A stretch of DNA of 32,282 bases from Pseudomonadota bacterium (GTDB lineage: Bacteria; Planctomycetota; UBA8108; UBA1146): NCBI GenBank assembly GCA_017859655.1, contig JAFMMO010000014.1:1-32282 (forward strand). The letters are read 5' to 3'. The position numbers and the translations under genes were made by a program. The notes beneath the pieces were generated by a model. That model had not been told where the DNA came from. It ran no database searches and was given only the letters and a program-made list of their open reading frames with translations. Each line of letters opens with the position of its first letter. The stretch's first letter is position 1. Positions 7,101 to 10,872 of the stretch are shown here, one piece after another.

Positions 7101-8207
7101 GACATCGCTGACCTGCGAGGAGTTCCCCGGCATGAGGCGCGCGGTGCTCGGGCTGATCTGGTTCGGGTCCTGGGTCAGCGGCAGCCAGGTGTTCCCGGTC
7201 GGGTCGGTCGGATCACGGAACTCGAAGGTGGCATCCCACAGGGTCTCGGAGGGATCGCTGGCGTAGGTGAACGCCATGTCGATGATCCCCGCGCGGATCC
7301 CGGCCGGGATCGAGGCGGAGGTGACATACGGCTCAATCCCCGCGAAGGAGCCCGGCCTTCCGAGTGGAATCTGGAACGGAACCGCAGAGCCGGAGAGCCC
7401 GAGGCTGCTGGAGACGACGGTCAGCTCCAGTGCCTGGGAGTTGCAGGAGTTGTTGACGATGAGCCCGTTCGGGAGCTCGACGGTGACCCCCTCCATGCCG
7501 GTCGGAAGCGTGTACGCGGCGGAGAAGGGGATGCCGTTCGTGATCCCGGCGGCCGGGATCGACGAGGACTGGTCGTCGGCGATGAAGACATCGGTGACGT
7601 TGTTGATCAGGTTGTAGCCGAGCAGCGTGACGGTGTTCGGCTGCAGCGCACCGAAGGGCTGCAGGATCGCGAAGCCGAGGCCGCTGTCGTTGATCGCATA
7701 GCCGAGGACGACCGGCGCACCGGTGAAGCCGCGCGCACCCGCCGGGACCCCATCCTGGGTCAGGCCGGTGTTCGGGTTGAGCACGTTGTCGATCTCGACA
7801 TTGAGGAAGCCGGTGCGCACTCCGGTGGGGATGCGGACGGTGAGGCTGGAGTCCGCGCCCTCCCCTTCGACGAACACGCCGACATTCACGCTCTCGATGC
7901 GCCCCGGAATGCTGATGCTTCCGTTGTTGTTCGTGAAGTAGACGTGGTTCTCGTCGAGGTTCGGCGAGAAGTTCTTGCCGCTGACCGTGATCAGGTCACC
8001 GGGGGCTCCCCCCTCAGGGTTGATCCCGGTCACGAGGGGCTGAGCGGGATCGAGCTGGGGGCCCGGCGGGCCCGCCTCGTTCCGACTTCCCGTGTTGCAG
8101 CCGGCGGTCAGGAGGAGCGGCAGGAGGAACGCCCCGATGAGGGCGAGGTTCCGCGCCGCGCGCACGCGCCAGAGATCGTTCCGGGGTCGACTGGCAACCT
8201 TTGCCAC
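4122..8207 (-). CDS. Giant Gly-rich lipoprotein with IPT/TIG-like domains
   Basis: Starting at GTG 8207 gives 1361 residues. This start has AAAGGAG seven bases upstream and places a basic N-region and hydrophobic core (about residues 21-34) just before a lipobox-like TAGC, with Cys37 as the likely lipidated residue. An in-frame ATG at 8318 would add a sequence unlike a signal peptide. Residues about 50-150 form an IPT/TIG domain (VTGINPEGGAPGDLITVSG), with one or two similar beta-sandwich units after it. From about residue 520 there are blocks of Gly-Gly-Ala runs interleaved with short beta-strand segments (GSIQILGTISCAGGDG style), ending in a compact domain that includes DAPVIDQIQIDFNN. The architecture indicates a surface or periplasmic structural/adhesive protein with a possible beta-helix. 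No catalytic motif was recognised. Confidence 0.75.
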   Translation of the reverse strand: MAKVASRPRNDLWRVRAARNLALIGAFLLPLLLTAGCNTGSRNEAGPPGPQLDPAQPLVTGINPEGGAPGDLITVSGKNFSPNLDENHVYFTNNNGSISIPGRIESVNVGVFVEGEGADSSLTVRIPTGVRTGFLNVEIDNVLNPNTGLTQDGVPAGARGFTGAPVVLGYAINDSGLGFAILQPFGALQPNTVTLLGYNLINNVTDVFIADDQSSSIPAAGITNGIPFSAAYTLPTGMEGVTVELPNGLIVNNSCNSQALELTVVSSSLGLSGSAVPFQIPLGRPGSFAGIEPYVTSASIPAGIRAGIIDMAFTYASDPSETLWDATFEFRDPTDPTGNTWLPLTQDPNQISPSTARLMPGNSSQVSDVEGVVGPGTTYTLHWDSSADIPPSLGLVTTQIRILFDEASGGTSLFTPSCVPDYVSPVIVVNNDVGATFSIVEDFNSNNQQGPGTNALWNSANSPGVLTAAPPPVGAPIIPATGAGTDDIILLAGGVYVIDTDSMFILDETDPVNPVDLLQNNPGATAGEFHVRSLLIQEGADVTWQGSNPVLFRVAGDGTDEFQSVVIAGEINFDGEAAVDATSGSNTPGGAGGICGGGAGGDGAFVSIDGANLLVDSIDPAGRGGLEGGYGGLSSTYVTGTGGSSSPRAGCGGGGGHAEHGDDAINALYEDPSSNAICLPPSPGGPARGDKWLTTLTAGAGGGGGGAVAVFANNNISARHGGGGGGGGGAFGVAARGSIQILGTISCAGGDGAKGSPGQQSGAGGGGAGGAIMLHATGNVEFGADALLNVAGGFGGIASSSSLNPVNGGDGSPGRISVQGNLAQAGINEGTYDPAEGTIGVSIGVMSVGADLPGISFTDLDSSVLTAAGQVAVTDPSSPNLGMVEYVVDTDLGEVYDSNGVLVFTNPALSTGGDSWVFELRNLEVPFGIALVGRGSMPLVFECSGFTTISGTIDVSGEAGGEPDFSDPLNPLPGLGGAPGAGGGAGGEGGAVDPAALTSTGGAAGGLSAVIPDSLIAMTPPLGGGGGTGNPVPSDGIVAAQGGYGSTDADPCDGSSGGGGGFSSAGTDAGASGGCEPGGMGGTSYGSNFFLVIDPENPAEAIELRAGGGGGAGGGAYASGSVLSPGSGGGGGGGFVEVFSRGPISVNSTAVLRARGGNAVRGPSNAGSGGAGAGGAIRMRSTSTVNILPLAVIDTQGGLANLEPVSTYPLGPTAQFTAGDGADGRVRMETPLGFTDGSGQNVGAFLTGAFSTADLRERTAVSTAYRLIAEDGSTLIGGASFATGAQSVVDLSTAGAGTEYRVLIEGAYADPASPAVPGEWFGPLDDTDLLDAVEFIRLRVLLYTTATDAPVIDQIQIDFNN

Positions 8208-8599
8208 GCCAGAGCTCCTTTCTCCTCGGGCGACCCTCGTGGCCGGCCGCGCACCCCCTCGGGCCTGCGGTCCGGCGAACACGAATCCTCGGTCGTCGAG
8301 GAATTGCTTCCGTCCCACCCGGTCCGGGTGGGCTCTTTCCCTGGGGAATCGAGGCCAGCTGCGAGGCGAGTTCCGGCCCGATCAAACGGGACCAGGTCGC
8401 TCTTCGCCGGCGCTTCGGGGGTCGCTCGGGTCCCCGTCGAGAGGTGACAGCCCCTCGATCTCCCGAACCCCCGTCCCTCCCGCGGTTCCGCGGGCGAGGT
8501 GAGTGGCCCATACCGAGCAGCGAGGCCACTCGGAGGCTGCAGCAAAGGCGATGCCGAGCGGACAACGCCGCCGAACTGCGCGAATCCTGCAGCTTTCGA

Positions 8600-8978
8600 T
8601 CGACTCTTGGTCAGCCCCGTAAGCGGGGCTTGACGCCAGGACGCACCGGTGTGCGCCAGATGTGACACAGTCGCTCATCCGGAGCCTCCGAGCACACCCC
8701 ACCACCGCCGAGAGGCGGGACCCAGGACCTCCTGTGGGAGGAAGTCGAGGTGAGGTGCCAAGGGAGAAAGACCCGGCTCCAAACCGGTGTGAGGTTTGGG
8801 GACGAGCCGAAGAGGTCCCTCGCCGAGGGGCGGGAGTCCTCTCGTTGAAATCCGGACCGGCTCCGAAGGGGGCATCCGGCTCCCGACCGCTCAGGACGCA
8901 GGCGGGAGGCGAAGCGGAGTCCGCCCGCTGTGCCTGAGTGAGGCAGCGTCGGACGGATTTCATCCCCTTCGTGGAGAA
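8600..8978 (-). ncRNA. Candidate structured RNA or structured leader, class unknown
   Basis: The predicted transcript begins near 8978, downstream of the promoter at 8985-9012. A GAAATCCG segment near its 5' end can pair with CGGATTTC about 110 nt later, closing a multi-branched domain that contains the CTCAGG/CCTGAG arm. A second domain (about 8773-8862) has nested CGGCTC/GAGCCG pairings around CCAAACC/GGTTTGG and CCCTCG/CGAGGG hairpins. The 3' boundary is set at the long hairpin 8605-8640, which could be a terminator but lacks a U tract. I looked for RNase P, tmRNA, SRP, cobalamin, TPP, SAM and c-di-GMP cores and did not recognise any. It may be a separate RNA gene or the first part of a 770-nt leader of the lipoprotein mRNA. 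Confidence 0.4.
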
Positions 8979-8984
8979 ACTCCC

Positions 8985-9012
8985 ATCGTATCGCGCGGGG
9001 TGATGTTGTCAA
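8985..9012 (-). promoter_or_regulatory. Strong candidate sigma-70 promoter
   Basis: On the minus strand a consensus TTGACA (9012-9007) is followed after 16 nt by TACGAT (8990-8985). Transcription would start near 8978 and read through the hairpin-rich region towards the Gly-rich lipoprotein. It is the best promoter match in the window and shares the GCGCGATACGATG context with the promoter at 3956-3984. Confidence 0.6.
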
Positions 9013-9173
9013 GATGAGGGGGAAGGGCGCAAGAGGCGAGAATCGCCCATTCTCGCGAGAATTCGCGATTCCCGTGGTGCGCCGGGGGTGGGGCGCCGAT
9101 CATCGGAGGAGAGCCCGTTCTCCCGGGAACCGCCGGGAGTCCTCGGGAGTCCATCTCGCGAAGGGCGGGTGCG

Positions 9174-10872
9174 GTGCGCGACGACGGCTGGGGACCGATC
9201 TTCGAGACCGAGCGGGAGATCCTCCGCCGCCAACTCCGGCACTGGCAGCGCGCCCGCGCCGGTCGAGGAGGCAGCGCGGATCGGCTCGACCTCGAGCGAA
9301 TGCGGGCCCCCTCTCCCCGAAGGCTGCGACGCCTCGGGCCGATCCTCGGCTGGACCCTCTCCCTGGGGCTCCACATCGGGCTCGGTGCCTGGCTGCTCCC
9401 GGCGCTCCTGCAGGACCCTCCCCCCCCCGCCCGCTCCGTCGAACCCGATCTACATCTCCTTCCTCCCTCCGACTCCTCTCGTCGAAGTCCCCGCGACGCC
9501 GGCGGCGGAGCCGGAGCCGGAGCCCCGCCCCGAACCGGAGCCGATCCCTGAGGCGGTCCCCGAGCCGGAGCCCCTCCCGGAGCCGATCGTGGAGTCGCGG
9601 CCGGTCGAGCCGGGTCGGGACGATGGCAGCACCGACGGTGACGAGAGCCTCGCCAGCGAAGTCGCCGTCCTGGGACCGGGGCCCGGGGCGGAGCGGACGG
9701 GACGATCGAAGCTGGGGTCGCGGTACGGCGGTCGGGCGCGAGCTCTCCGTGCGTATGGAGGAGGGGCGGAGACGGAAGAGGTCGTCTCGCGCGGCCTCGA
9801 GTGGCTCGCGCGCCATCAGGACGCGGACGGCAGCTGGGCTCCCCACGGCTTCTCTCGCCACTGCGCGTCCGGGGTCGCCTGCAACGGTCCCGGGCTCCCC
9901 GAGTACCGGACAGGAGTCACGGCCCTCGCGCTCCTCGCGTTCCTGGGAGCGGGGCTCGATCACCGAACCGAGTCCCCCTACCGCCAGTGCGTCGCCGGAG
10001 CGCTCGCGTGGCTCACCGCCCAGCAGGACGAGCGGGGCATCTTCGGCTCGCGAGATGGGCAGTACTTCTACAACCACGGGATCGCCACCCTGGCCATCTG
10101 CGAGGCGGCGATCCTCACCTCCGATGCGCAGCTCCTGCAGGCGGCGTCCCGAGCGGTGCGCGCCATCGAGAGAGGGCAACAGCGCGGCGGGGGCTGGGAC
10201 TACACGTCCGCCCGCACCGATCGAAACGACCTGTCGGTGACCGGCTGGCAGGTGATGGCGCTGAACGCCGCCGTCGGAGCCGGAGTGCCGGTCGAGGCCT
10301 CGACCTGGGCGTCGCTGGAGGAGTACCTCGGCCGCGCGGTGCGTCGCGACGGCTCCGCGGTCTACGCCGATCGCGGGACGGCGGCCGGACGCGGCGGAGT
10401 CTCGATCGCAGCGGTGGGCCTCCTCTCCCGACTCTATGCAGGCTGGTCCCCCCGCTCCCGGGAGTCGGAGCGAGCGGCCGCCCGCCTCGTACGCGAGGGA
10501 CCGGACCCCGATGCGCGCGCGGACTGGGATCGCACCTACCAGTCGACCTACTACTGGTACTACGCGACCCTCGCCCTCTTCCATGTGGGCGGGGATCCCT
10601 GGGAGGCCTGGAACCTCTACCTTCAGCGGAGCGTCATCCCCCTCCAGCACCGGCACGGCGAGGGAGACGGGTCCTTCGACCCGGATCCGAACTGGCTGGG
10701 GGCCGCGGGAGGCCGAGTGATGAGCACGGCGCTGGGCGTCCTCATCTTCGAGGTCTACTACCGGTACACTCCGCTCTACCGCAAGCTGGGCCTCCCCGGC
10801 CGCGCAGAGAGGAGCGCCATCGATGGAAGCCCGACCCCCTCGAGCGGACCGATCGGGAGTCCCCGGTTCTGA
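9174..10872 (+). CDS. TonB-like membrane-anchored prenyltransferase/squalene-oxidase-repeat protein (apparent frameshift)
   Basis: The gene reads in two frames. The first, from GTG 9174, encodes a basic cytoplasmic start and one TM helix (residues about 54-80, SLGLHIGLGAW) as in TonB-like proteins. It enters a nine-C tract at 9420-9428 and would stop at 9551. Shifting by +1 at the tract continues with NPIYISFLPPTP, a Pro/Glu linker (EPEPEP type), and a soluble domain of QDADGSW-like helical repeats of the prenyltransferase/squalene-oxidase alpha-toroid fold (from about 9770). The joined product is about 566 residues. Similar secreted repeat proteins are common in planctomycetes with unknown roles; the aspartate-rich DxDD motif of true cyclases was not seen, so enzymatic cyclisation is doubtful. 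The tract may be a sequencing error, a slippage site or a real mutation. Confidence 0.75.

Follow-up and report, generated by a model that had tools for sequence, protein, structure and literature searches.

A predicted tandem sigma-70/sigma-54 control region with a locally encoded activator upstream of a giant lipoprotein gene

The interval between positions 8600 and 8985, together with its flanks, is most probably the DNA control region of a giant lipoprotein gene, built as a tandem sigma-70/sigma-54 promoter with an activator encoded nearby; we put the probability of this reading at roughly three in four (0.77). The interval lies in a DNA stretch of 32,282 nucleotides, referred to below as the window. 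Its predicted regulatory sites and their geometry are conserved, rpoN is present, the activator gene is conserved and the arrangement occurs throughout the family. What was originally predicted to be a structured RNA thus becomes a testable regulatory circuit, whose promoter, activator, binding motif and target are all predicted from comparative sequence alone. No description of such a circuit was found for this lineage.

Conserved sites between the distal promoter and the lipoprotein gene

The controlled gene occupies positions 8207-4122 of the minus strand. It starts with a GTG codon at 8207 and encodes a glycine-rich lipoprotein of 1361 amino acids, aligned here with its homologs, in which a lipobox, LTAGC, can be read. 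The protein has no Pfam match, and homologs are present in all 16 genomes of the family. A conserved Shine-Dalgarno (SD) sequence, AAAGGAG (8221-8215, minus strand), precedes the GTG codon with a 7-nt spacing. The upstream regions of 14 lipoprotein orthologs from four genera were compared. At their distal end lies a sigma-70-type promoter, P1 (9012-8985, minus strand), with TTGACA at 9012-9007 and TACGAT at 8990-8985 separated by 16 bp and an expected start at about 8978. This promoter had been recognised in the original prediction and is borne out by its retention, as TTGAC-N16/17-TACGAT, at all 14 orthologous loci; in a genome of the same genus it occupies the syntenic place with 92% identity. 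The longer pattern TTGAC-N16/17-TACGATG occurs only once in the window's own genome, at P1 itself. In all relatives read, P1 and the stretch following it accompany the gene for the giant surface lipoprotein, so the proposal that this stretch is a long leader or cis-regulator of that gene was right in kind.

In the 14 leaders, P1 and the SD sequence are 365 to 826 nt apart, and a few short blocks between them are conserved throughout. The first is a palindrome, GTGTCA-CATC-TGGCGC (8668-8653, minus strand), found as GTGYCA-N4-TGGCRC in 14/14 leaders and proposed to be enhancer (activator-binding) site 1. To our knowledge, this motif corresponds to no described activator site. The second, CGTYAA, lies 30-33 bp from the start of the palindrome, again in every leader; its version in the window, CGTCAA (8635-8630, minus strand), is proposed to be one half of enhancer site 2, which takes the form CGTYAA-N6-TTGACG in genera g3 and g4. 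The third block is P2, a putative sigma-54-type -24/-12 promoter, CGGCATCGCCTTTGC (8556-8542, minus strand; GG at 8555), with an expected start at about 8530. The invariant core of sigma-54 promoters is GG-N10-GC, here GGC-N6-TTTGC, and exactly one such sequence is present between P1 and the SD sequence of each of the 14 leaders. It begins 113 or 115 bp from the palindrome start in genus g1 and 123-125 bp from it in the others, so that in 14/14 leaders the palindrome falls within the approximately 80-200 bp upstream where an enhancer would be sought. The outer distances, from P1 to the palindrome (58-309 nt) and from the palindrome to the SD sequence (271-552 nt), vary several-fold. Among 2800 shuffled leaders, none contained the palindrome and 28 had the sigma-54 core, a large contrast even though the counts are post hoc, the core having been recognised after the conserved blocks had been looked at.

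Some details of the arrangement are less regular. The -24 side of P2 reads TGGCC or CGGCA and not TGGCAC. Distances from palindrome to promoter cluster at 100-101, 113-115 and 123-125 bp when all targets described here are considered, and helical phase is thus kept only loosely. Two other candidates were discarded: the palindrome's own TGGCAC as a sigma-54 -24 element, as no GC follows 10 bp further on, and an upstream ORF of genus g5 ('MKQTASALD...'), which has no counterpart ORF in g1 or g4, leading us to treat the conserved block as a nucleic-acid motif.

The candidate activator, its distribution and further candidate targets

A gene for a sigma-54 activator (bEBP) is found at 15603-14092 on the minus strand of the window. 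Its product combines an AAA+ domain (PF00158), with the GESGTGK and GAFTGA motifs, and a Fis-type helix-turn-helix (HTH_8, PF02954). Each of the 16 family genomes has one close ortholog, which shares a contig with the lipoprotein gene in 13 of them and lies near it wherever contigs allow, those of G001, G002 and G010 being too short or broken to tell. The recognition region of the DNA-binding domain, GVNVKT(V/I)YNR, does not vary among the family members compared; in those other families where it is readable, its counterpart is GINVKTLYN. The loop motif is GAFTGA in the window and in G002 and GSFTGA in G001; among the orthologs L160-L175, those of genera g3-g5 have GAYTGI or GSYTGI in place of GAFTGA. 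The sigma factor itself is available, as a PF04552 match above the cut-off was obtained in 16/16 family genomes, with two matches in the window's own genome. Most family genomes carry two rpoN genes (for example at G000:C3:12737-13210 and G000:C177:6369-6842), and one copy adjoins vWA-type genes in G000 and G002. Adjoining the activator gene is one for a response regulator with an HD domain (PF13487; 16475-15468, minus strand), conserved in six neighbourhoods and a possible source of signal input. Next to both stands a gene for a short AAA protein whose sigma-54-activator domain is partial (17349-16489, minus strand); this gene and the response regulator accompany the activator in most neighbourhoods read.

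We propose that P1 provides a basal transcript with a long leader, while the activator, which is linked to the palindrome by their co-occurrence, would bind the enhancer formed by the palindrome and the half-site at 8635-8630. Measured from the P2 start, the centres of the two tandem sites would fall near -140 and -108 in g3-g5, and near -130 and -96 in the window. The bound activator would then loop over about 100 bp to the sigma-54 RNA polymerase at P2 and open this promoter at the expense of ATP, turning the lipoprotein gene on at its signal. After transcription, a stem next to the SD sequence and a conserved GAAGCA motif (see below) may tune translation.

The combined pattern was searched for in 29 genomes of the class, 16 from the family and 13 from outside it. 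All 16 family genomes gave matches, in 14 of them at the lipoprotein control region. The match in G002 belongs to another gene. In G010 the lipoprotein gene is broken over contigs and the match lies at a place common to G004, the sequences at G004:C54 and G010:C226 being identical and away from the lipoprotein. None of the 13 genomes outside the family matched, and a control with the reversed pattern gave no match in any of the 29. Looser searches revealed additional targets with the same layout in two genera. In G002, a lipoprotein paralog is preceded by GTGCCA-N4-TGACAC, TGTTAA at +30 and TGGCCCGAGGGTTGC, whose GG lies at +101; the gene of a secreted protein in that genome has TGTCAA at +30 and CGGCACCCAGGTTGC with GG at +100. 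With a relaxed -24 element, a secreted vWA-like protein of G003 was found to have CGGATCGATCTTTGC with GG at +113; it shares a DLPSGGG motif with the secreted protein of G002. The vWA-like gene was predicted to carry the enhancer module in g4 as well, but its orthologs there lack it. Two distant lipoprotein homologs from another family of the class (L186 and L187, in G017 and G019) have a GG-N10-GC sequence close upstream of their start (CGGCAATCGGCTTGC and TGGCATGCGAATTGC); both loci are devoid of the GTGYCA-N4-TGGCRC palindrome, and the lipoprotein homolog of G017 has an activator homolog a few kb away.

RNA structure and other readings of the region

The interval 8600-8985 had been proposed to specify an undescribed structured RNA, held together by at least eight strong inverted repeats, including a helix between GAAATCCG (8961-8954, minus strand) and CGGATTTC (8854-8847, minus strand) that would close a multi-branched domain. 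The presence of a promoter of its own and a mildly low folding energy (z of -3.1 on the minus strand and -2.2 on the plus strand) speak in favour of an independent RNA. For the entire 673-nt leader z was -4.0 (20 shuffles). Control windows elsewhere on this contig gave z values between -1.7 and +0.5 in 11 of 12 cases and -3.8 in the remaining one, so the energy of the interval is one that ordinary windows can attain. Compared with dinucleotide shuffles of the interval, which has 67% GC, the repeats proved no commoner: perfect inverted repeats of 8 bp numbered 3 against 1.8 +/- 1.8 (83/300 shuffles reaching 3), those of 7 bp 11 against 6.7 (39/300 reaching 11) and those of 6 bp 31 against 23.5 (39/300 reaching 31). 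Both arms of the closing helix exist, but their pairing probability is at most 0.001 whether 386 or 673 nt are folded. The same-genus locus aligns over 8984-9021, the promoter, and 8195-8228, the start region, with nothing alignable between, which deprives the nested fold of support from conservation. No Rfam family reached its gathering threshold in the window or in 15 related loci. The only low-E match was to a fragment of the archaeal SRP RNA (Archaea_SRP), which scored 24.7 bits where the cut-off is 96.5; it is spurious, the true SRP RNA of this genome being located elsewhere (G000:C212, 58 bits). As the fold is not conserved and the conserved features behave as DNA regulatory sites, we regard an independent RNA as very improbable. 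The case also carries a warning that GC-rich intergenic regulatory DNA can resemble structured RNA.

An RNA role is better argued for the leader as a whole. One could suppose that the long P1 transcript is a cis-regulatory RNA, in which the palindrome forms a hairpin and a stem abutting the SD sequence acts as a translational switch. P1 and its 365-826 nt leader are indeed conserved, the palindrome variants seen among the 14 orthologs retain pairing as G-U, and some leaders have a low folding z (-6.0, -4.3). The stem is the RNA part that holds up, outside the interval originally singled out. It is preceded by GAAGCA (8310-8305) and pairs CCTCG (8301-8297) with CGAGG (8228-8224), the entire element spanning 8310-8224 on the minus strand. 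In the 14/14 orthologs it forms in each leader's own fold, with the 5' arm following a conserved GAAGC; shuffling the interior re-formed it in 2-7 of 300 trials for g1 and g5 and in 18-68 of 300 for the short elements of g3 and g4. Its pairs are fully kept in nine distinct rows, one being changed on both sides (U-A/C-G) and another showing a G-C/G-U exchange, while the insert between the arms differs strongly in length between genera. The covariation is modest, its score being reached by 22 of 500 shuffles. With GAAGCA, the stem is a plausible translational element. It resembles known 5' UTR translational control stems in abutting the SD sequence and in having a conserved unpaired motif (GAAGCA) upstream; it differs in matching no Rfam family and in leaving the SD sequence itself outside the stem. 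Extending an RNA role to the palindrome meets with several difficulties. The palindrome keeps its distance to the sigma-54 core and not to the SD sequence, and most of the leader is unalignable between genera. Moreover, the GTGCCA/TGACAC variant of G002 breaks the RNA hairpin with a C.A mismatch yet keeps its position and the layout, which favours a DNA site bound by a protein. We therefore consider the cis-regulatory RNA unlikely as the main explanation, although it is the strongest competitor of the tandem promoter.

The conserved blocks could also be parsed as a promoter for an ECF-type sigma factor, with the palindrome's TGGCAC as -35 element and CGTYAA as -10 element, the sigma-54-like site being incidental. 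CGTC and CGTT are common ECF -10 cores, and the spacing from GCAC to CGTYAA is 14-15 bp in 14/14 leaders. This parsing leaves the conserved 5' arm of the palindrome, GTGYCA, without an explanation, as it does the sigma-54 core found 113-125 bp away in every leader, and we judge it improbable. Finally, the suggestion that GTGTGCGCC resembles some group II intron 5' ends, and that the plus strand may hold an intron remnant, can practically be dismissed: no intron family appeared in the Rfam scan at gathering threshold or even at E<=10, and GTGTGCGCC is simply the edge of the conserved palindrome read on the opposite strand.

Relation to known systems and neighbouring genes

The proposed tandem sigma-70/sigma-54 arrangement finds its closest parallel in glnALG, where a distal sigma-70 promoter (glnAp1) likewise accompanies a sigma-54 promoter (glnAp2) with two tandem activator sites (for NtrC) upstream of it, and where the activator is also an AAA+ protein with a Fis-type helix-turn-helix. 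NtrC recognises GCAC..GTGC, whereas the putative site here is a different palindrome, GTGYCA-N4-TGRCRC. At glnA the two sites precede the start by about 140 and 90 bp (PMC7408454), close to the positions computed above, and in another two-site NtrC system activation depends on the face of the helix (PMC7408454). The two systems differ further in that glnALG serves nitrogen metabolism while the present target is a surface lipoprotein, and in that the activators of g3-g5 have no receiver domain in the aligned ORFs. A comparative study associated sigma-54 regulation with lipoproteins and other surface components at the bacterial exterior (PMC3162934), a theme into which sigma-54 control of this gene would fit; that study predates the genomes of this lineage, contains no planctomycete or similar term that we could find and does not describe the locus. 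The best account is that the kind of system is known and that the lipoprotein promoter region is an added member of it, distinguished by the motif GTGYCA-N4-TGRCRC plus CGTYAA. Conceivably, though we hold this only as a tentative and rather unlikely extension, the region may be part of a dedicated surface-protein switch, in which a one-per-genome activator with natural variants of GAFTGA (G(A/S)YTGI in most relatives) would use a new enhancer code (this same motif), possibly with the second sigma-54 of most of these genomes as partner and input from the HD-domain response regulator, to control giant lipoproteins, while the SD-abutting mRNA stem would add another level of control.

Two other genes of the window deserve mention. 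A 356-amino acid protein (3800-2730, minus strand) has no Pfam match and is 76-84% identical across genera, far above the conservation of its neighbours. On the other side of the control region, a divergent gene (9174-10872, plus strand) has a TonB-like N-terminus, as judged by reading, and a squalene-cyclase-like C-terminus (PF13243); its reading frame changes at a stretch of C residues around 9419-9428, reflecting either a sequencing error or a real frameshift.
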